Part shown: positions 16,458-53,284 of the stretch, in pieces
Layout: each line of letters starts with the position of its first letter
How positions within the stretch are numbered: the first letter of the stretch is position 1
IMG/VR virus record: IMGVR_UViG_3300020191_000005
Span: 52,648-116,647 of that record
Length of the DNA: 64,000 bases
Strand: one strand, 5' to 3'
Origin: a virus
Translations under genes and position numbers: made by a program
Notes under the pieces: model-generated
Seen by the model: only the letters and a program-made list of their open reading frames with translations
Told to the model about the DNA's origin: nothing
Databases searched by the model: none

Positions 16458-19400
16458 ATGGCTTTAGTATCACCAGGAGTACAGGTCAGCGTTATAGACG
16501 AAAGTTTCTATACACCAGCTGAGCCAGGTACAGTACCAATGATTTTTGTTGTTTCCGCACAAGACAAAACGAACGGTGCTGGAACAGGAACAGCCGCAGG
16601 TACAACAGCGGCAAATGCAGGCAAACCATATTTGGTTACCTCACAAAGAGAATTAACAGACTTGTTTGGAGATCCAACTTTCTATACGGACACAAACAAC
16701 AATGCACTACACGGTAGTGAATTAAACGAATACGGGTTACAAGCGGCCTACTCATACTTAGGAGTAGCTAACAGAGCTTATGTAACTAGAGCATCATTAA
16801 ACACTAAAGAACTAATGGCATCTGCTACAGCACCAGCGGCTAATCCAGCAGACGGCACTTATTGGTTTGATACAGCAAATAGTGTGTTTGGTATTTTTGA
16901 ATGGAACGGCGCATCGGCTAGTGTTACTGGCGGACAGAGCTTTACTAACAAAATTCCAACAGTGATTACAGATACAACTAAAGTAACAGGCGGCGCACCA
17001 AAAACTTCTGTTGGCGCAATTGGTGACTACGCTATCGTTGCAACTACAACACTTAACAAGTTATACTACAAAAAATCCGATGGTACATGGGTACAAGTAG
17101 GAACTACAGCATGGATTAGTTCATGGGCAACTGTTACTGGTACGGTTTCCAACGCAACAATTACTAACGGTGCTTCGATGAGCATTAACGGAACTGTAGT
17201 AACTAGTGGCGGAACAGCATTAAGTGATGTTGTAAGTGCTATTGGTTCAGCAGGTATTGCTGGAGTTACTTCAGCAGTAGTTAACAACAAATTAGAGATT
17301 TATTCAACAGGCGTAGACGTTGTATTAGCAACTAACGCTTCAACACTATTAGCAGAGATTGGTTTAACAGCGGCTACTTTTAAAGCACCGAAGTTAAGTA
17401 TTGCTCCGCATACTAGTGTACCTGAATATAAGTCAACTGACACAAGTCCACGTCCAACAGGAAGTATCTGGGTTAAAACTACACAACCTAATTTAGGTGC
17501 TAACTGGAAAGTTAAAATGTGGAACGGCACAACTAGCTTGTGGGAAACTAAGTCAGCTCCAATGTATGCAACACCTGAAGCGGCGTTGTTTGCATTAGAT
17601 AAAGCAGGCGGCGGTAAAAACTTACCTGTAGGCGCAGTTTACATCAAAACTAATAATGATGAAGCAACTGATCCAATTGGTGACTTTAAGATTCACAGAA
17701 GACAAGCAACTGGTAATACTAAAATTATTTCAGATATTATCACAACACAACTAGTAACTGGAACTTATGCTTTTGATATTGCAGAAACTAGTCCAGCAAG
17801 TGCTGTACTAAGTGCGGCAGTTACAGTAAGTGTTACAACAAACGGTAATGCAGATGATGCAGATGATGTTGCAGGAGCAATTAACTCCGCAGGATTAACT
17901 AACGTTGTAGCAAGTGTTGATGCTTCAAACAGAATTGTTATTGAACACAATGACGGTGGTGACATCCACATTACAGATACTAACAGCGGATTAGCTTTAG
18001 CAGGATTTGTAGCTTACAATGGCTCAAATGCGGCAACAGCAACACCAAACTTGTATACAGATGCCGCAGGCAATGCATACGATATGGTTGCTAGTAACTG
18101 GAAATACTTAACATATACTGCAAGTACATTGGCTCCAACAGCATTAACAACTGATGGTGCATTATGGTACAACAGTATTGTTGACGAAGTAGACTTAATG
18201 ATTCATAACGGTACTACATGGGTAGGTTATCAAGATTCAACTGCACCTTTTTATAATGCAGTAAGTGGTGATAAAACAGATCCAGCAGGACCAATTGTTT
18301 CAGCTACTGAGCCAACTAAGCAATCAGATGGAACTGATCTTAAAAATGGCGACATTTGGATTAGTACAGCAGACTTAGAAAATTATCCTAAGATTTACAA
18401 ATACAATGGCACTTCATTGAAGTTCATTGCACTTGATACAGGCGACCAAACTACTGAAGACGGTATTTTGTTTGCTGATGCACGTTATGGCATTTCAGGT
18501 GTTAAAGGTGATACAGCAGGAACTATTGCTGAATTACTAGTAAGTAACTTCTTAGACTTTGACGCTCCAGATCCAGCACTATATCCAAAAGGTATGTTGC
18601 TTTGGAATACTAGACGTTCAGGATTTAACGTTAAGAAATATGTACGTAACTACATTGATACTACAGGACTTAATATTAGATTTAACAACGACGAGTCAAT
18701 GAGTGCATACGCAACTAACAGATGGGTAACTGAATCAGCTAACCAAGAAAATGGTGCAGGCTCTTTTGGTAGAAAAGCTCAACGTAAAGTTGTAGTACAA
18801 GCATTACAAGCAATGGTTAACAGCAATGCTGATATTAGAGATGATAATTCAAGAATCTTTAACTTGATGGCAACACCTGGTTACTCAGAGCTAATTGGTG
18901 AAATGAAAACACTTAACTATGATAGAGGCATTAGTGCATTTGTTGTAGGTGACTTACCGTTTAGATTAACACCAGATGCAACTTCATTGAACGAATATGC
19001 AACTAACGTAAAAGGTGCAGTTGAAGACAATGACGATGGACTTGTAACATACGATGAATACTTAGGTGTGTTTTATCCAAGTTTATTCACAAGTGATAAC
19101 GCAGGTAACAACGTAGTTGTTCCAGCTTCACATGGTATCTTACGCACAATGGCACTAAGCGATCAAGTATCGTTTCCATGGTTTGCTCCAGCAGGAACAA
19201 GACGTGGTGGAATTACAAATGCTTCAAGTGCAGGATACATTACAAGCGAAGGTGAATTCCAAAGCGTAGCACTTAACGAAGGACAGCGTGATACATTGTA
19301 CAGCAATGCTATTAACCCTGTAACGTTCTTAAGTGGTGCAGGACTTGTTAACTTTGGTCAAAAGACAAGAGCTAAAAATGCTAGTGCTTTAGACAGAATC

Positions 19401-19709
19401 AACGTTGCAAGACTAGTAATTTACTTACGTTCACAGTTTAACAAACTTGCTAAACCTTATATCTTTGAGCCAAATGACAAAATCACACGTGATGAGATTA
19501 AAGCACAAGCAGATAGTTTACTATTAGAGTTAGTAGGTCAAAGAGCATTATATGACTTCTTAGTAGTGTGTGATGAATCAAACAACACACCAACTAGAAT
19601 TGATAGAAATGAGCTTTACTTAGATATAGCAATTGAACCAGTGAAAGCTGTGGAGTTTATTTACATTCCATTAAGACTTAAAAACACTGGTGAGATAGCA
19701 GGACTTTAA
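16458..19709 (+). CDS. 18: Tail sheath protein, gp18-like, with large insertion
   Basis: The N-terminus (SPGVQVSVIDESFYTP, then PYLVTSQRELTDLFGDP and YLGVANRAYVTRA) and the C-terminus (FLSGAGLVNFGQKTRAKN, LVIYLRSQFNKLAKPYIFEPND) are those of T4-like contractile sheath proteins. At 1083 residues it is far longer than T4 gp18 (659). The extra sequence lies between about residues 130 and 660 and holds four units of the form G-x-W-x...NGTxxW (near 16849, 17458, 18151 and 18349). These are likely surface-exposed beta domains. A late promoter and AGGAG precede it; gp19 follows. Confidence 0.92.
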   Translation: MALVSPGVQVSVIDESFYTPAEPGTVPMIFVVSAQDKTNGAGTGTAAGTTAANAGKPYLVTSQRELTDLFGDPTFYTDTNNNALHGSELNEYGLQAAYSYLGVANRAYVTRASLNTKELMASATAPAANPADGTYWFDTANSVFGIFEWNGASASVTGGQSFTNKIPTVITDTTKVTGGAPKTSVGAIGDYAIVATTTLNKLYYKKSDGTWVQVGTTAWISSWATVTGTVSNATITNGASMSINGTVVTSGGTALSDVVSAIGSAGIAGVTSAVVNNKLEIYSTGVDVVLATNASTLLAEIGLTAATFKAPKLSIAPHTSVPEYKSTDTSPRPTGSIWVKTTQPNLGANWKVKMWNGTTSLWETKSAPMYATPEAALFALDKAGGGKNLPVGAVYIKTNNDEATDPIGDFKIHRRQATGNTKIISDIITTQLVTGTYAFDIAETSPASAVLSAAVTVSVTTNGNADDADDVAGAINSAGLTNVVASVDASNRIVIEHNDGGDIHITDTNSGLALAGFVAYNGSNAATATPNLYTDAAGNAYDMVASNWKYLTYTASTLAPTALTTDGALWYNSIVDEVDLMIHNGTTWVGYQDSTAPFYNAVSGDKTDPAGPIVSATEPTKQSDGTDLKNGDIWISTADLENYPKIYKYNGTSLKFIALDTGDQTTEDGILFADARYGISGVKGDTAGTIAELLVSNFLDFDAPDPALYPKGMLLWNTRRSGFNVKKYVRNYIDTTGLNIRFNNDESMSAYATNRWVTESANQENGAGSFGRKAQRKVVVQALQAMVNSNADIRDDNSRIFNLMATPGYSELIGEMKTLNYDRGISAFVVGDLPFRLTPDATSLNEYATNVKGAVEDNDDGLVTYDEYLGVFYPSLFTSDNAGNNVVVPASHGILRTMALSDQVSFPWFAPAGTRRGGITNASSAGYITSEGEFQSVALNEGQRDTLYSNAINPVTFLSGAGLVNFGQKTRAKNASALDRINVARLVIYLRSQFNKLAKPYIFEPNDKITRDEIKAQADSLLLELVGQRALYDFLVVCDESNNTPTRIDRNELYLDIAIEPVKAVEFIYIPLRLKNTGEIAGL

Positions 19710-40006: not shown

Positions 40007-40513
40007 ATGAGAATATTAACATTAGATAACGAATGTTATAAACTCGAGCATCTACCTGACGAATTAACTGACGATATTAGATTTGCGGTTTTGGATAATA
40101 GTAATCCAAAAGAACCTGACTTCTTTTATGTTCCTTTGATTTTTTTGGAGTCATTTAACTCACCTGCTATGGTAATGGAAATTGGAGGCAAAGAAATTAC
40201 TATGCCTATCGATTGGCATCTAGCAGTTGGTGACAGTGGCGGTGCTGGAGATATTGAAGTACTACCATTAACAAGTTTAAACGATAGAGGCTTTGAAGCC
40301 TTCTTGTTTAATCCGTTAACTAGTACAATGATGAATTGGGGTGAAGTAAAAATTACCAATTTTTACAATGATGTAAAATGGTATTTCCCTAAAATGAAAA
40401 ATGGACAACTATTAGGTGTACCTTTAACTGACGGTGATAACCCACAATGTGCATGGTTTGTAAAAGACATTAGTAGACAAAGTGAAGTAATTGATTATGG
40501 GATTCTTATCTAA
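40007..40513 (+). CDS. Conserved-type protein downstream of uvsW
   Basis: This 168-residue protein opens RILTLDNECYKLEHLPDELTDDIRF and contains FFYVPLIFLESFNSPA and VLPLTSLNDRGFEAF, segments I associate with an uncharacterised protein of marine T4-like phages. AAAGG lies before the ATG. It has no recognisable motif and is acidic. Its end overlaps the next start. Confidence 0.6.
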   Translation: MRILTLDNECYKLEHLPDELTDDIRFAVLDNSNPKEPDFFYVPLIFLESFNSPAMVMEIGGKEITMPIDWHLAVGDSGGAGDIEVLPLTSLNDRGFEAFLFNPLTSTMMNWGEVKITNFYNDVKWYFPKMKNGQLLGVPLTDGDNPQCAWFVKDISRQSEVIDYGILI

Positions 40514-41216
40514 AAGTATTAAAGTAGACGTATACACAAACCAACAATATGCGTATGATCAATGTAAACCGCAGTTGGCTAAGAAGTATATTCCTGAATG
40601 GTGGAAAGGGTTACCAGCAAGTAGACCCACACACCAAGCCTACTATAACGACTTACCGATAAGTTCAATGAAACAATGTCCTGCAATTAATGACATATTA
40701 AAAGCAGGTATTATTTTCCCTAGTTGGTGTGAACTACACATGCGGGTAAACGAACATGGAGAAAAGGAAGTAAGAGTCTTTCCTGATTTTATTCCTGCAA
40801 TACCGCATGACGAACGTGACTTTGATTTTCATAAACCCGGACTTGCACATGTTAAGTTAGGATCACCTTGGTTTATTAAAGAGACTACAGGTGTAAAGTG
40901 GGTATGGATTAAAACAGACTGGCATACTAAGAATCCATTAGCGTATTGGGGAGTTCCGGGTATTACAGAGTATAAGTATCAACATAGTGTATTAAATAAT
41001 ATTATGGTACCGTATAACAGTGAAGTTAAGATTCAAGTTGGTGATCCTTGGTTACAATTAATTCCAATGAGTGAAAAACCTATTGATCTTAATGTCCACT
41101 TAGTAGACGCTGAAACTATGAATAATTTAAATACAGTTAATATTTCCTCAGTAGGGAGTTATTTAAAAACCATACGCAATATAAGTAAGCAAAGGAAGTT
41201 AGATGAAAACAATTAG
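40497..41216 (+). CDS. Trp-rich protein, paralogue A
   Basis: From ATG 40497 the protein has 239 residues. It shares with the gene at 45770 the order P-x-W-(W/F)-K, C-P-A-(I/V)-x-D-(I/V)-L, a central (F/L)PSWCxL/IPLWCDY, HF/PF-H-K, W-F/M-x-(K/R)-T, and a late LxQLIP/AQVIPF. The pattern of beta strands and Pro/Trp turns suggests a jelly-roll or cupin-like fold. No clear metal triad is visible. It is coupled to the methyltransferase downstream. A TTG two codons earlier is possible. Confidence 0.55.
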   Translation: MGFLSKSIKVDVYTNQQYAYDQCKPQLAKKYIPEWWKGLPASRPTHQAYYNDLPISSMKQCPAINDILKAGIIFPSWCELHMRVNEHGEKEVRVFPDFIPAIPHDERDFDFHKPGLAHVKLGSPWFIKETTGVKWVWIKTDWHTKNPLAYWGVPGITEYKYQHSVLNNIMVPYNSEVKIQVGDPWLQLIPMSEKPIDLNVHLVDAETMNNLNTVNISSVGSYLKTIRNISKQRKLDENN

Positions 41217-44083: not shown

Positions 44084-44534
44084 ACTACCTTTAAGTGAGA
44101 TCTTTATGGCTTTGGATATGGATGCCAAAGGTGCATATAAAGAATGGACTGAAGAAGAGCGTAAAGAATTAAACTTTTGGTTGCTTAATCGTTATGCAAG
44201 TAGTGTAAGCGGATCACAAGACGCAAAAGAATGGGCAGTTATTGCCACTAATGAATATTATAACAAGAATTGGAATGTACTAGGAACAAGACATCCACAG
44301 CTACAATGGCAACTGTTGTGTGCAACACATAACGCAACACGTAAAAGCAGACACCATCAATGGTTAGGATTAAAACAAAAAGGCTCTGATAACAAGGCTG
44401 TTAAGTTTCTTAAAGAAATGTTTCCTAATATGAAAATAGACGAGGTAGAATTACTTGCTAGAATATCTACAACAAAAGAACTTAAAGAGCTTGCCGAGCA
44501 ACACGGGATGGATAAAAAAGATGTCAAAGTCTAA
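44067..44534 (+). CDS. Hypothetical helical protein
   Basis: This 155-residue protein is mostly helical and Trp/Lys-rich (MALDMDAKGAYKEWTEEERKE, WLLNRYASS, LQWQLLCATHN). RKSRHHQWLGLK and the C-terminal KELKELAEQHGMDKKD suggest nucleic-acid binding. It has its own early promoter and is followed by an overlapping zinc-finger gene. I do not recognise the family. Confidence 0.55.
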   Translation: MKQKNKLPLSEIFMALDMDAKGAYKEWTEEERKELNFWLLNRYASSVSGSQDAKEWAVIATNEYYNKNWNVLGTRHPQLQWQLLCATHNATRKSRHHQWLGLKQKGSDNKAVKFLKEMFPNMKIDEVELLARISTTKELKELAEQHGMDKKDVKV

Positions 44535-45210
44535 CGAAGGATTTGAATGTCCATACTGTAAAGTATCGTACACAAGAGAAAAAACTCTTGCAGTACATAT
44601 GTGTGAAAAGAAACGTAGAGCTTTACAAAAAGACGAGAAACGTGTACAACTAGGGTACTTAACGTTTAATAGATTTTATAAACTATGTCAACGCTTTGAT
44701 GGTGTTAAAACATATGAACAGTTTTGCAATAGTCAGTACTACAATGCATTTGTAAAATTTGGTAGCTTTGTTAGTAACGTAAGACCGTTATACCCAGAGA
44801 AGTATATTGACTATGTAGTTACAAGCGGAGTTAAACTAGACCATTGGTGTAGAGAAGAACTATATGAAAAGTATGCACTTGATCTTATTCGTAAGGAAGG
44901 TGTTGAAACTGCTCTTGAACGTAGTGTTAAAAACATGATGGAATGGGGTGACGACAACGAAGCTAGGTGGCAAGACTACTTTAACTATGTAAGTTTAAAT
45001 AGAGTATGTCAAGATATAGTAGACGGCAAAGTAAGTCCGTGGTTGATATTAAATTGCAAGTCTGGTAAAGAGATGGTGTCTAAAATGAATGATGAACAAT
45101 TACAAATTGTATATGCTATTCTTGATCCAAGTCATTGGAGTACACGATTTAAAAGAAGTCCAGTAGATGTTGAACTAGTAAAAGAAATTGTAAAGAAAGC
45201 AGGATTATAA
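44521..45210 (+). CDS. C2H2-type zinc-finger protein
   Basis: From ATG 44521 the protein has 229 residues. The N-terminus carries CPYCKVSYTREKTLAVHMCEKK, close to a C2H2/C2HC finger, followed by helical sequence (YEQFCNSQYYNAFVKFGSFV) and a C-terminal VELVKEIVKKAGL helix. An upstream ATG in the same frame lies inside the preceding gene and lacks a ribosome site. It probably binds nucleic acid. It is followed three bases later by the DnaE-like gene. Confidence 0.6.
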   Translation: MSKSNEGFECPYCKVSYTREKTLAVHMCEKKRRALQKDEKRVQLGYLTFNRFYKLCQRFDGVKTYEQFCNSQYYNAFVKFGSFVSNVRPLYPEKYIDYVVTSGVKLDHWCREELYEKYALDLIRKEGVETALERSVKNMMEWGDDNEARWQDYFNYVSLNRVCQDIVDGKVSPWLILNCKSGKEMVSKMNDEQLQIVYAILDPSHWSTRFKRSPVDVELVKEIVKKAGL

Positions 45211-45213
45211 TAT

Positions 45214-45786
45214 ATGCCAGATATTGATATTGACTTTGCAGACAGACAAATTATACTCGATAAATTAAAACATCGTGTAGCAAAGTTAAACACAGGTAAA
45301 AAGCATAACACAGGAATTTACGCAACTGAGATTCCACATAATCCTATTGACTTATTAAGCACAGTTGATCACGACACAGCAGAAGAAAGAGGATACTTTA
45401 AATTAGACTTTTTAAATGTATCAATCTATGACGAAGTAAAAAACGAAGAACATCTAAACGAACTAATGGAAAGGAAACCACTATGGCAACTTCTGGAACA
45501 CGAAGACTTCAGCGAAAAAGTCTTTCATCTAAACGGGCACAGCAGTCTATTAAAAGTCTTGAAGCCCAGCTCGGTATTAGAATTGGCGGCGACACTAGCG
45601 ATAATAAGACCAGCGAAGAGACATCTAGCGAACAAGAGTTGGGAAGAGATACACAAGGAAGTGTGGACAAAGCCAACTGATGGAGCATACTACTTTAAGA
45701 AAGCACACGCAGTAGCTTACGCACATGCTATTATTGTTCACATGAACTTATTGTGCGAAAGGATTAAACATGACAACGAAGATTAA
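45214..45786 (+). CDS. Miniature DnaE-like protein (Pol III alpha fragment-like)
   Basis: This 190-residue protein shows, in correct order, short motifs of the bacterial replicative polymerase DnaE: PDIDIDF (2-8) as in the palm site, GYFKLDFLN (60-68) like VKFDFLGL, VFHLNGHSSLLKVLKP with LAATLAIIRPAKR (103-136) like the VFQLES...ALYRPGP block, and KKAHAVAYA (162-170) like NKSHAxAYA. DnaE itself is about 1100 residues, so large parts including the PHP and beta-binding domains are absent. It may be a decoy, a replication cofactor or a degenerate enzyme. It lies two genes upstream of the primase and contains an embedded frame. Confidence 0.65.
   Translation: MPDIDIDFADRQIILDKLKHRVAKLNTGKKHNTGIYATEIPHNPIDLLSTVDHDTAEERGYFKLDFLNVSIYDEVKNEEHLNELMERKPLWQLLEHEDFSEKVFHLNGHSSLLKVLKPSSVLELAATLAIIRPAKRHLANKSWEEIHKEVWTKPTDGAYYFKKAHAVAYAHAIIVHMNLLCERIKHDNED
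45483..45680 (+). CDS. Possible overprinted small gene inside the DnaE-like gene
   Basis: A 65-codon frame in the +2 register relative to the host gene starts at ATG 45483 with AAAGGA and 7 bases of spacing. The product has a basic helix (TSGTRRLQRKSLSSKRAQQ), a short SIKSLEAQLGIRIGG and an acidic Ser/Thr tail. By hand count about half of the host-frame third positions here are G or C, against about a quarter in the preceding part, while this frame looks more like normal phage codons. Function unknown; it could still be chance. Confidence 0.4.
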   Translation: MATSGTRRLQRKSLSSKRAQQSIKSLEAQLGIRIGGDTSDNKTSEETSSEQELGRDTQGSVDKAN

Positions 45787-46489
45787 ATTTTTCACAGGGT
45801 ACGAAGAACTAGAACAAACATTACCAGTATTGCCTGCATCAAAGTTTTGGCCTGAATGGTTTAAAAATCAAAGAGCTAATACAGATGACAGTAAAGAATA
45901 TCGTAGAGAGTCAAGCACCTTAAGACGTTGTCCGGCTGTACTTGACGTACTAGGTATGGGTTATATTATTCCATTGTGGTGTGATTATAAAGTAACACAA
46001 GTTAAAAACATGCAAGGTACTGAAGTACGTTATGCGACTCCGCCTAACGTTTCAAGTATGTTTACTGCACAGCTTCATCCAGAAGAACAAATGGACAACT
46101 ATCCATTTCATAAAGATAGTTACAGAGGCGCATTTAAGTTTATGAATCCTTGGATGTTAAGAACTCCTCCTGGATATAGTTCATTAATTATAACTCCTAC
46201 ATATTCAAAAAATGATAACTTAGAAGTAATGCATGGAGTAGTTGATACAGATATCTATCATGAACTACACGTCAATACAATTTTTACTGCACCTATTGAC
46301 AAAGAAATTACATTTGAGAGAGGAATGCCTTTAGCTCAAGTTATTCCTTTTAAGCGTGAAACATTTGAAATGGAGACGGCGGTTGGCGATTATCGAAGCT
46401 CACATAGTAAGATTACGCAATTCATACATAACAGCCTGTTTAAGGCTCAGCACTATAGACCAAAACTTTTAACTAAACGCTACAAGTAG
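45770..46489 (+). CDS. Trp-rich protein, paralogue B
   Basis: This 239-residue protein is a diverged relative of the product at 40497. Matching segments are LPASKFWPEWFKNQR, RRCPAVLDVLGMG, IIPLWCDYKV, FMNPWMLRTPPGYSSLIITP and MPLAQVIPFKRE. Alternating strands with PPGYS and an AQVIPF end suggest a jelly-roll. It could be a sugar- or ligand-binding protein. The start overlaps the DnaE-like stop by 17 bases; a convergent gene ends three bases after it. Confidence 0.6.
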   Translation: MTTKIKFFTGYEELEQTLPVLPASKFWPEWFKNQRANTDDSKEYRRESSTLRRCPAVLDVLGMGYIIPLWCDYKVTQVKNMQGTEVRYATPPNVSSMFTAQLHPEEQMDNYPFHKDSYRGAFKFMNPWMLRTPPGYSSLIITPTYSKNDNLEVMHGVVDTDIYHELHVNTIFTAPIDKEITFERGMPLAQVIPFKRETFEMETAVGDYRSSHSKITQFIHNSLFKAQHYRPKLLTKRYK

Positions 46490-46491
46490 AT

Positions 46492-46860
46492 TTATTTGGG
46501 TTTACGTACTAGTTGAACACTCTTACGTTTTACTCTTTTAATTGCTAAGTTTCCTAAGTTTACAACCGGTCCTACTGTTACTTTTACATCTTTAGTATTC
46601 ATTGTCATTAGACAATGTCTAAATGCAGGAAACTCTTTCGGTAGAAAGATACTGATCGGTATTGTTCGATTACTTTCAAACCACCATGCTTCTCCAAGAT
46701 CGAGAAATGCTTTTTTTGATTCGTCTGTATTCAATGCGGTATAAACATACATGCTTGTTACATAATTATCCTGGTTGTTAATGATACCAACATACTCGTT
46801 GCCACCATACTGTACGATGCTTAAGAACGGGAAGTTAGTTTCGATATCTTTTAGTAACAT
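46492..46860 (-). CDS. Small leftward hypothetical protein
   Basis: This 122-residue protein lies alone on the minus strand between two rightward genes, 2 bases from its convergent neighbour. It has SIVQYGGNEYVGIINNQDN near the start, a central WWFESNRTIPISIFLPKEF and a very basic end (IKRVKRKSVQLVRKPK). The first part resembles an Sm- or SH3-like small barrel, so RNA or protein binding is possible. No known family is assigned. Confidence 0.6.
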   Translation of the reverse strand: MLLKDIETNFPFLSIVQYGGNEYVGIINNQDNYVTSMYVYTALNTDESKKAFLDLGEAWWFESNRTIPISIFLPKEFPAFRHCLMTMNTKDVKVTVGPVVNLGNLAIKRVKRKSVQLVRKPK

Positions 46861-47717: not shown

Positions 47718-48701
47718 ATGAGCGGAATCGTACACGAAACTATATTAGCACACTTGCCTGCGAAGCGTAAAACTACACCAAGTGGTTGGACCAGCTTCAA
47801 TGCTCCTTGTTGCGTACACAATGGTACAGGTGCTGATACTAGACAACGTGGTGGACTAATCCAAAATGCAGAAGAAGGTGTAAGCTATCATTGTTTCAAT
47901 TGTGGCTACACAGCAAGTTGGAATAAAGGTAGACGTATTACCTACAAGATGAAAAAGTTCTTGCAATGGATTAACGTTAGCGATGATGCTATTAATAAAC
48001 TATCCCTAGCAGTATTACAATTTGAATCCGACGAAGCTCTACAAGCAATAACACGTATGCCAGAGTTTAAGACAGTAGAACTGCCAGAAGGTGCAAAGCC
48101 AATAAGCGAATATACTGATACTACTGACGCTCATTTAATTAAAGTATTAGAGTATATGAAGTCAAGACAGTTGTACTTAGAAGACTACAACTTTCATTGG
48201 ACACCTAAGATTGGATACAGAGATAGATTAATAGTTCCGTTTTATTTTAACAATCAAATAGTAGGATACACAGCAAGGAAAGTTACTGATGGTGCTCCAA
48301 AATATATGAGTGAGCAACAGCCTGGTTATGTGTTTAATATGGATCAACAAGACTATCGTAGACAGTTTGTTATTGTAGTTGAAGGACCTATGGATGCTAT
48401 TGGCATAGAAGGACTAGCACTACTAGGTAGCGAAGTCAAAGATCAACAGCACCTACTCATCAAGTCGTTAAATAAGCAAGTAATACTAGTTCCAGATAGA
48501 GATGAAGCAGGACATAAACTAATTGATCAAGCAATAGAATTTGGTTGGAGTGTTAGTATGCCGGACTGGGATCAAGACATTAATGATGTGAACGATGCAA
48601 TTACAAAGTATGGAAGAATATATACACTACATCAAATTGTAACACATTCAGAAAGCTCATCATTAAAGATTAAACTTAGGAGTAAAAAATGGTTTGGTTA
48701 A
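47718..48701 (+). CDS. 61: DNA primase, gp61-like
   Basis: This 327-residue protein has an N-terminal zinc site (Cys31-Cys32-x-His34 and YHCFNCGY, Cys59 and Cys62), a central core and a Toprim domain with VVEGPMDAIG (Glu222) and VPDRDEAG. It makes RNA primers on the lagging strand together with the gp41 helicase, encoded further downstream. T4 gp61 is 342 residues. It has a strong early promoter. Confidence 0.9.
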   Translation: MSGIVHETILAHLPAKRKTTPSGWTSFNAPCCVHNGTGADTRQRGGLIQNAEEGVSYHCFNCGYTASWNKGRRITYKMKKFLQWINVSDDAINKLSLAVLQFESDEALQAITRMPEFKTVELPEGAKPISEYTDTTDAHLIKVLEYMKSRQLYLEDYNFHWTPKIGYRDRLIVPFYFNNQIVGYTARKVTDGAPKYMSEQQPGYVFNMDQQDYRRQFVIVVEGPMDAIGIEGLALLGSEVKDQQHLLIKSLNKQVILVPDRDEAGHKLIDQAIEFGWSVSMPDWDQDINDVNDAITKYGRIYTLHQIVTHSESSSLKIKLRSKKWFG

Positions 48702-51087: not shown

Positions 51088-52527
51088 GTGAAACAAAATA
51101 CTGATTACGGATTTGATATCCAAAAAACATATTTAGAAATTATGTTAAGCGATGCACAAACATTTGTGCGTTGTCAGGGTATCTTTGATCCAGAAAGTTT
51201 TGACCGTAATCTACAAGCAGGTGCTACATTTATTAGAGACTTTGTTGCAGAACACAACACACTTCCTACAGAACAAATTGTTAATAGTGCATGTCCAGGT
51301 ACTAATTTAAAAATTCCAACAGGACTTAATGAACAACACTATGATTGGTTATTGAATGACTTTGAAACATTTAGTAGGCACAAAGCATTAGAGAAAGCAA
51401 TTTTAACAAGTGCTGACTTGATTGAAAAAGGTGAGTATGGTCAGTGCGAGAGTCTAGTCAAAGAAGCAGTACAGATTGGATTACAAAAAGACTTAGGTAT
51501 TGACTACTTTAAAGATCCTAAAGGTAGACTGCTAGGACTAAAAGACAACAACGGACAAGTAAGCACAGGCTGGGAAGCACTAGACAAGAAACTGTTTGGT
51601 GGCTTTAACAAAGGCGAGCTTAATATATTTGCAGGTGGATCAGGTGCAGGTAAGAGTTTGTTCTTGGCTAACCTAGGAGTTAACTGGGCAACACAAGGTA
51701 TGAATGTTGTGTATCTAAGTTTAGAACTTAGTGAAGCACTAGTAAGTATGCGTATTGACAGTATGATGACTGAGATACCTAGCAGAGAAATATTTAAAGA
51801 TCTTGACGGTGTTGAAATGAAAGTCAAGATGATGGGCAAGAAATCAGGTGCATTACAAGTCAAGTATATGCCAAGTGGTAAGACAACCAATGATGTAAGA
51901 AGTTATATCAAAGAGTATGAAGTTAAAACAGGACGCAAAGTAGACGTACTATTGATTGACTATTTGGATTTGCTTATGCCAATAGGACAAAAGATTAGTG
52001 CAGAGAACTTGTATGTTAAAGACAAATATGTAAGTGAAGAACTACGTAACTTGGCAATGGAACTGGGTTGTATTTTTGTTACAGCATCGCAGTTGAATAG
52101 ATCAAGTGTAGAAGAAATTGAATTTGATCACAGTCACATCAGTGGTGGACTTAGTAAGATTCAAACTGCTGATAACGTGATTGGTATCTTTACAAGTAGA
52201 GCTATGCGTGAACGTGGTAGATATCAAATACAGCTAATGAAGACACGTTCATCAAGTGGTGTAGGTGCAAAGATTGATCTAGAGTTTGACATTGATTGTT
52301 TGCGTATTAGAAACTTAGATGAGGATGATGACGGCAGTGGTTATGGTGCGGCTCCGCAGAGTAGTATTATGGACAGTCTAAAACGTAACACTAATGTTAC
52401 CACAGACAAAGAACCAGACACACCAAAAGAACCCAACGAAGGTGCTCCAATAGGCAAAGTAAGAGCACAAACAGACAGTACTAAACTTAGAAGCTTCCTT
52501 GCTAATCTAGGTGATGACGATGAGTAG
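51088..52527 (+). CDS. 41: Replicative helicase, gp41-like (DnaB type)
   Basis: This 479-residue protein is a DnaB-type helicase. The N-terminal helical domain precedes Walker A GGSGAGKS (183-190). Later are VVYLSLELSE, the Walker B LLIDYLDLLMP, the arginine-finger region ASQLNRSS and an LMKTRSSSG segment. It unwinds the fork and associates with gp61. The start is GTG at 51088 after AAAGGAA. The C-terminal 60 residues are acidic and disordered. Confidence 0.93.
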   Translation: MKQNTDYGFDIQKTYLEIMLSDAQTFVRCQGIFDPESFDRNLQAGATFIRDFVAEHNTLPTEQIVNSACPGTNLKIPTGLNEQHYDWLLNDFETFSRHKALEKAILTSADLIEKGEYGQCESLVKEAVQIGLQKDLGIDYFKDPKGRLLGLKDNNGQVSTGWEALDKKLFGGFNKGELNIFAGGSGAGKSLFLANLGVNWATQGMNVVYLSLELSEALVSMRIDSMMTEIPSREIFKDLDGVEMKVKMMGKKSGALQVKYMPSGKTTNDVRSYIKEYEVKTGRKVDVLLIDYLDLLMPIGQKISAENLYVKDKYVSEELRNLAMELGCIFVTASQLNRSSVEEIEFDHSHISGGLSKIQTADNVIGIFTSRAMRERGRYQIQLMKTRSSSGVGAKIDLEFDIDCLRIRNLDEDDDGSGYGAAPQSSIMDSLKRNTNVTTDKEPDTPKEPNEGAPIGKVRAQTDSTKLRSFLANLGDDDE

Positions 52528-53284
52528 AAAGATTTATTTCTTTGGCGACAGCTTTACAGTAGACTACGAAACAGATTGGACTTGGACAAGACAACTTGCA
52601 GAGAAACTGCATGTGGACGGATTAGTCAATCACAGTATGGTAGGTACCAGCAATGACTGGATACTAATGAAGCTACGTGAATGTATTCCAACACTAACTG
52701 CCAATGATGTAGTTGTAGTAGTTACTACAAGTTTATATCGTCATTGGTTCATCAAAGACTTTCCAGAACTATCAAACTATATGATCGGCAACTGGTCACA
52801 GATGGCCGCAAAAGAACACATCGATCAAGATGTAATTGATAGTGTACAAGGTTATGCTGTAAATCTACAACGCAACGACATTGATCAGTTTAGATTTGAA
52901 ACACAGGTAGCATGGTTAAAGGGTGTACAAACAACTGTAGGTTGTAGTCTGTTGTTGATACCGGGTTTTGAAATGCCCATTGACTTTAAAGGATTGGTTA
53001 GAGTACACGGTGATATGACCAATACACTAAGCAACAATGAATTCGTTACACTAGAACAAAGAGACTTATGGTACCGACGAGGCATTGACACTCGCTACAA
53101 TCATATGATTCGTGACAACCATGACTCGCTATCAGACAAGTGTGTCAACAGCATACTCACAGGAAATGATTTGGATCTAACTGACGGATTCAAAATACAT
53201 CAGCTACACAGCGATGACAAAGACACACACAAACAAATTGGACCTAAACTAGTAGAACTAAACAAACAGCTATACGGGAGTTAA
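52520..53284 (+). CDS. SGNH-hydrolase-like protein
   Basis: From ATG 52520 the protein has 254 residues. It begins KIYFFGDSFTVDY, matching block I of SGNH/GDSL hydrolases (Ser in GDSF). MVGTSNDWILM resembles block II/III (Gly, Asn). A late HxxH-like stretch (FKIHQLHSDDKDTHKQ) could supply the catalytic His. Such enzymes remove acetyl groups from sugars or lipids. Two in-frame starts lie 6 and 9 bases upstream. It overlaps the helicase stop by 8 bases. Confidence 0.65.
   Translation: MSRKIYFFGDSFTVDYETDWTWTRQLAEKLHVDGLVNHSMVGTSNDWILMKLRECIPTLTANDVVVVVTTSLYRHWFIKDFPELSNYMIGNWSQMAAKEHIDQDVIDSVQGYAVNLQRNDIDQFRFETQVAWLKGVQTTVGCSLLLIPGFEMPIDFKGLVRVHGDMTNTLSNNEFVTLEQRDLWYRRGIDTRYNHMIRDNHDSLSDKCVNSILTGNDLDLTDGFKIHQLHSDDKDTHKQIGPKLVELNKQLYGS

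Follow-up and report, generated by a model that had tools for sequence, protein, structure and literature searches.

The C-terminal half of a split minimal DNA polymerase III alpha in a probable jumbo phage, with a candidate overprinted gene in its coding sequence

Introduction

What could a 190-amino-acid (aa) protein with the motifs of a bacterial replicative polymerase do in a T4-type phage? The question is raised by a gene in the IMG/VR virus record IMGVR_UViG_3300020191_000005, of which the 64,000 nucleotides from position 52,648 to 116,647 were analysed (hereafter, the window; all positions are counted from its first letter). The gene, termed piece B, resembles a part of the alpha subunit of bacterial DNA polymerase III (Pol III alpha, DnaE). 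The original prediction took it for a DnaE remnant that could act either as a decoy for the host clamp or replisome or as a replication cofactor. In the explanation favoured here, to which as a whole we assign a probability of about 0.75, piece B forms the C-terminal subunit of a minimal Pol III alpha made of two polypeptides, and its coding sequence harbors a second, nested gene.

Results and Discussion

Piece B as one half of a split Pol III alpha

Piece B is a 190-aa open reading frame (ORF) that starts with ATG. As originally predicted, it contains four motif blocks of Pol III alpha in the expected order. The features of the gene are as follows.

45214–45786, plus strand: piece B, almost certainly the C-terminal subunit (rest of the palm, and fingers) of a split minimal Pol III alpha, from PHROG 11778, the structural model and structural matches
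45217–45237, plus strand: PDIDIDF, with the metal-binding palm Asp; D3, D5 and D7 invariant; aligns to Escherichia coli DnaE from residue 398
45400–45414, plus strand: KLDFL, with the third palm Asp (D65); K63 and D65 invariant
45607–45621, plus strand: RPAKR, fingers motif; R132, P133 and K135 invariant
45694–45723, plus strand: FKKAHAVAYA, fingers motif; aligned to YGFNKSHSAAYAL, residues 752–767 of E. coli DnaE

The residues listed as invariant, together with F161, K162 and H165, were conserved throughout an alignment of 60 piece B members, which includes the window and in which identity to the window falls to 35%. Relatives of piece B were present in 63 phage records, each sharing <60% identity, and in IMG/VR at least 551 of 600 candidate stretches encoded one. 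As a single sequence, piece B matched PF17657 alone in Pfam (E 0.049, under the curated cut-off), and a phmmer search of it against the Protein Data Bank (PDB) returned no match; the significance of its identity therefore comes from family profiles and fold. The comparison with PHROG identified family 11778, annotated as DNA polymerase (E 8.8e-58), as well as PHROG 405 (E 2.1e-6). The piece B family profile matched Pol III alpha chains in PDB, with E values of 0.0012 and up, and its alignment to E. coli DnaE begins at residue 398. The best of these chains was matched in four blocks in the right order, none of them individually significant, and the same search also returned one unrelated protein (E 0.037).

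The structural model of piece B, built from the 60 aligned members, had a mean predicted local distance difference test score (pLDDT) of 87.9. Structural comparison by VIA-align placed Pol III alpha in all of the first ten entries, with Z-scores of 9.4–6.8, of which six exceeded 8 (values <8 may reflect merely a common arrangement), and the next entry had a Z-score of 3.4. Residues 2–187 of the model aligned to residues 401–784 of the E. coli enzyme (2hnh), and the PHP and C-terminal domains of Pol III are absent from the 190-aa protein. The profile and structure checks of DnaE identity thus both came out in favour of the original prediction. Two results weigh against the assignment: Foldseek alone gave a weak signal (the first 13 rows were Pol III alpha, the best with E 0.021), and the profile comparison of piece B with single-chain phage DnaE was also weak, with a probability of 14.5 compared to 91.2 for the N-terminal piece described below. 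Even so, piece B is almost certainly half of a split Pol III alpha.

The N-terminal half as a second gene in related phages

A second short gene with a match to PF07733, termed piece A, was found in all eight named jumbo phages searched, which are a subset of the 63 phage records with a piece B relative, and it belonged to PHROG 11127 in all four of those scanned. The profile of piece A matches residues 320–393 of E. coli DnaE; the protein contains the GRGS motif and ends shortly after it. Piece A was a short ORF of its own in 80 of 80 viral-contig loci, ending within ∼8 residues of an EFLK-type motif, and a pattern search for piece B around piece A (up to 8.5 kb in each locus) found none in these 80 loci. 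Since piece A ends at DnaE residue 393 and piece B aligns from about 398, the break between them falls at a single point of the palm. Piece A carries the GRGS motif, and piece B supplies the metal-binding Asp and the fingers; the two would meet at the break, restoring one nucleotidyltransferase core. The anatomy of A and B supports a single core well, and catalytic activity of the two together is somewhat more likely than not.

Piece B was present in 8 of 15 contigs bearing piece A, including seven of the eight contigs >200 kb. Genes flanking the piece A loci gave only scattered matches to those of the window and of the piece B loci (7 of 80 loci).

Several observations count against the two-piece arrangement. 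Neither piece A nor a family B polymerase was found in the window's own record, which is incomplete at 116,647 bases; among the 21 records searched from the window's clade (the window's record included), only two, G030 and G031, contain piece A; and a 359-kb contig bearing piece A (G017) showed no piece B at E 0.01. The other 19 clade records are fragments. In G030, piece B lies near 61.2 kb, piece A at 183.1 kb and a family B polymerase at 210.8 kb; in G031, the same genes lie near 232.6 kb, at 5.9 kb and at 36.5 kb, respectively. If the gene order is the same in both, piece A would lie 122 kb past piece B in one direction and 227 kb in the other, in a genome of ∼349 kb. On this map all 19 records without piece A end before reaching it, so that fragment length can explain its absence. 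The earlier supposition that the window's clade lacks piece A was overturned when these two larger contigs yielded it with E values of 7.9e-60 and 3.2e-63. The piece A query A2, run on 15 clade records, gave three weak matches only, all to a longer single-chain DnaE, and the query A4 (14 clade records) gave the same three. Altogether, the results are consistent with the presence of piece A in the window's phage and do not prove it.

A single-chain minimal DnaE was also observed in at least four clade contigs (loci L186, L187, L188 and L347, on G009, G008, G014 and G033, respectively), about 6–8 kb after piece B, and its beginning was also seen at the end of the L074 locus. The protein of L347 has 551 aa and matches PF07733 (E 1.2e-42) and PF17657 (E 5.5e-16), with no PHP match at E 0.01.

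The original prediction had assumed a family B polymerase alongside the DnaE-like protein. This held for the relatives, as PF00136 was found in 8/8 named jumbo phages and in two clade contigs of ∼236 kb; none was found in the window's own incomplete record. Among eight IMG/VR contigs searched, G030, G031 and G019 carried a family B polymerase and the other five did not. The window's phage is T4-like and probably a jumbo phage. Its restored core would operate alongside a family B polymerase of the phage itself, with a role in repair, in gap filling or in synthesizing one of the strands.

The small size of piece B (190 aa) and the family B polymerase of related phages could instead suit a protein without catalytic activity, which would bind a component of the host replisome as a decoy or scaffold. 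However, the metal-binding Asp is invariant in all 60 members, the partner half is retained in related genomes, and the structural alignment does not extend beyond about E. coli residue 784. The clamp-binding motif of Pol III alpha sits in the C-terminal region, beyond this point. A decoy is accordingly highly unlikely, and the term remnant is not supported for a protein whose N-terminal half is a second gene in related genomes. The other original suggestion, a replication cofactor, came close to the published reading of a split minimal polymerase (PMC7824862). Alternatively, A and B could assemble into a nucleotidyltransferase that is not a template-directed polymerase and that serves, e.g., in end addition or priming. 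The 58 residues from D7 to D65 leave little room for a thumb, and a gene annotated as primase and/or helicase occurs within ∼3 kb of piece B in 7/7 annotated jumbo phage loci viewed; the fingers motifs, on the other hand, are conserved, and we consider this role rather unlikely.

A nested ORF in the +2 frame of piece B

The fingers-coding part of piece B contains a further ORF, absent from the original prediction, with the following elements.

45483–45680, plus strand: nested +2-frame ORF of 65 aa, a candidate overprinted gene, marked by an excess of open frames
45472–45475, plus strand: AGGA, similar to a Shine-Dalgarno sequence and placed 7 nt ahead of the start codon of the nested ORF

An uninterrupted stretch of ≥60 codons in frame +2 was found in 77 of 80 relatives compared to 4.4 expected from synonymous permutation, and in 51 of 53 divergent representatives (<85% nucleotide identity) compared to 3.0 expected when protein and codon usage were kept in the shuffles. 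In the other frames of the 53 representatives, observed and expected counts were 0 and 0.3, 4 and 4.9, 10 and 13.2, and 16 and 10.3. As controls, 15 neighboring genes of the same loci were analysed after dropping homologs with internal stops or <70% coverage (n = 2–52, with n of 2 or 3 in four genes); long +2 frames numbered 0 except in one gene with 2 (0.9 expected), and in frame +1 one gene reached 10 compared to 5.2 expected and another 6 compared to 2.6.

The distribution of the frame was followed in 239 loci; four without a parsed piece B were dropped (L032, L325, L338 and L340) and identical coding sequences (CDS) were merged, giving 168 distinct CDS. A tree of these, made by a quick method with no bootstrap, supported the basal node of the window's clade (104 rows) with a Shimodaira–Hasegawa-like approximate likelihood ratio test (SH-aLRT) value of 99; the label "open" on the tree denotes 45 codons with any start codon. 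Within this clade, 97 of 104 CDS stay open for 49 codons or more when counted from the conserved start position, and 92 combine a recognised start with at least 55 open codons. The latter combination occurred in 6 of 45 members of the L189-like set, all within a 14-row group adjoining the clade, and none of 19 other piece B genes reached 55 codons (one has 50, no excess over the null). A nested-protein profile run on the ORFs of the searched loci gave 174 matches, of which 115 lay in the +2 frame of parsed piece B genes and the remaining 59 came from duplicate or unparsed loci at positions fitting the same place; loci with a parsed piece B gave no match elsewhere.

An open +2 frame could follow passively from the protein encoded in the polymerase frame or from codon usage, since the frame-0 protein is conserved and the gene is AT-rich, and one antisense frame did modestly exceed its null (the 16 of 53 given above). 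The shuffles keeping protein and codon usage nevertheless yield only 3.0 of 53, the 15 neighboring genes are flat in +2, and of the piece B genes from beyond the clade, 39 of 45 and 19 of 19 do not combine a start with 55 open codons. This explanation was already disfavoured and is extremely improbable.

Signals of translation accompany the open frame. Of 80 open representatives, among them sister-group members and L083, 60 have AGGA, GGAG or GAGG at −16 to −5 compared to 28.2 expected from synonymous shuffles, as do 3 of 44 closed genes; the start was ATG or GTG in 78 of the 80 compared to 63.5 expected. At the position four codons upstream of the reference Trp, AGG is used for Arg in 24/33 (6% elsewhere) and AAG for Lys in 32/38 (37% elsewhere). 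Start and Shine-Dalgarno sequence are thus conserved through synonymous choices in the polymerase frame. A third-base T that would make a stop had a frequency of 0.009 inside the overlap compared to 0.436 outside, partly by construction as open genes were chosen. Not a product of that selection are the third-base T frequencies inside and outside the overlap for Cys (0.09 and 0.594), Tyr (0.256 and 0.487), Phe (0.216 and 0.404) and Trp (0.218 and 0.286), nor those for Ser (0.418 and 0.412) and Leu (0.5 and 0.334), in which T was not avoided. Synonymous differences amounted to 0.24–0.28 at codons −12 to +24 and to 0.27 at codons 48 to 60, compared to 0.29–0.39 in the six preceding blocks, and the synonymous codon diversity of the polymerase frame was 0.77 inside the overlap and 0.82 outside. 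In the codon usage of the window, the polymerase frame scored −0.28 in the overlap, which is unusual (first percentile of the chunks of ten other genes, 0.13), and the +2 ORF scored −0.10 (off-frame chunks: median −0.42, 95th percentile −0.07).

The predicted nested protein is rich in Ser, Thr and Arg, and its N-terminal half is basic, with a mean net charge of +4.75 over the first 30 residues and −0.55 over the remainder. It belonged to no PHROG family, and tblastn against the phage collection at E 10 gave no match; in Pfam, one of three members scanned showed a sub-threshold similarity to BRX_N (E 0.015).

Certain results speak against a functional nested product. Synonymous differences were 0.35 and 0.44 between codons +24 and 48, the value for codons 36 to 48 (0.438) being the highest of all blocks; differences at fourfold sites were not lowered (0.325 inside and 0.328 outside, 31 independent pairs), which indicates that the constraint is loose and that a large part of the sequence can drift freely; the model of the nested protein had low confidence (pLDDT 56.5; helix at 3–36); and the frame is lost in 7 of 104 clade CDS. 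In these seven members (L061, L062, L068, L220, L221, L235 and L242) early stops cut the frame, and the gene seems to be lost at times; the nested-protein profile found no second copy in their searched loci.

The unreduced fourfold-site rates and the low-confidence model would also suit a frame kept open for the act of translation, through coupling or damping of piece B or of the next gene, with a functionless peptide. This is quite unlikely, as the avoidance is residue-specific (Cys, Tyr and Phe are depleted in third-base T, Ser and Leu are not) and synonymous differences are reduced over codons −12 to +24 relative to the six blocks before. A frameshift product was not favoured either, given the conserved start codon and Shine-Dalgarno sequence. 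An RNA element in the region was likewise rejected: an Rfam scan of 44500–46600 gave no match, and no inverted repeat was found in 45100–45900.

From these sequence signals, it is likely that the nested ORF is translated, as a protein of ∼65 aa from its own Shine-Dalgarno sequence and ATG, and that its product matters. The polymerase frame is common to distant jumbo phages and is therefore the older of the two, so that the nested ORF would be a candidate gene born by overprinting on it. Its product may act as a partner of the polymerase or in counter-defence or host takeover, or the ORF may be a device of translation. A more far-reaching proposal, which we consider unlikely, is that the product serves the split polymerase as a novel subunit or assembly factor, having arisen within the gene of the very subunit it serves and being made from that subunit's mRNA.

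Gene neighborhood of piece B

Two replication genes lie downstream of piece B.

47718–48701, plus strand: primase-like gene (PHROG 47, E 4.1e-37), 1.9 kb downstream of piece B
51088–52527, plus strand: DnaB-like helicase (PHROG 19, E 1.9e-71)

The original prediction had placed the gene next to primase, which was right in kind, the distance being 1.9 kb. Its T4-type classification of the phage is borne out by genes of the window for a gp32-type single-stranded DNA-binding protein, UvsX, a DnaB-like helicase, a helicase likened to UvsW by position and PHROG, tail sheath and head protease.

Other genes of the window were also noted. PHROG 7084 occurs twice, at 40491–41216 (E 1.1e-20) and at 45770–46489 (E 5e-46, also Pfam DUF6065), i.e., as two copies of one unknown family. 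One gene past piece B, a minus-strand gene of 122 aa lies at 46492–46860, and in 7/7 annotated jumbo phage loci viewed, the gene immediately after piece B is a minus-strand one of similar length. The tail sheath protein encoded at 16458–19709 is very long (1083 aa, PHROG 10581).

Comparison with known systems

Bacterial DnaE/Pol III alpha (2hnh, 2hpi and 5lew) shares with the phage enzyme both the order and the fold of the palm Asp motifs and the fingers. The latter, in contrast, is split and far shorter, 190 model residues standing against ∼384 of E. coli, and piece B ends near residue 784 and has no PHP part. We know of no C-family core smaller than the split minimal Pol III alpha.

Iyer et al. 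(2021; PMC7824862) described this type of split polymerase for group 2.2 jumbo phages and suggested a possible cooperation with the family B enzyme in one-strand synthesis or repair. Hence, the split polymerase is already known and the window adds a member; Atu_ph07, which that paper gives as an example of group 2.2, was among both the piece B and the piece A matches obtained here. In the literature found on it, the enzyme is predicted only. PF07733 has also been reported in 51.9% of a marine jumbo phage cluster (PMC9123017). The window's clade, by comparison, is known from IMG/VR contigs alone, and it widens the range of the split enzyme, with break point and catalytic residues kept.

The nested +2 ORF of this clade goes unmentioned in the passages of PMC7824862 consulted, and a literature search of incomplete coverage found no report of an overlapping gene in split Pol III alpha; the small candidate gene in piece B appears to be unreported so far. 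If real, it would be a clear case of a protein born by overprinting, on the polymerase gene of a phage whose genome has room to spare, and its dozens of divergent copies, along with relatives without it, would make gene birth and loss traceable and testable. Such overlapping genes can escape standard gene tables. As in overprinted viral genes generally (review: PMC8227390), a younger frame would here lie over an older and more widespread one; the difference is that the host gene is a polymerase subunit, in a phage genome of probably ∼350 kb.
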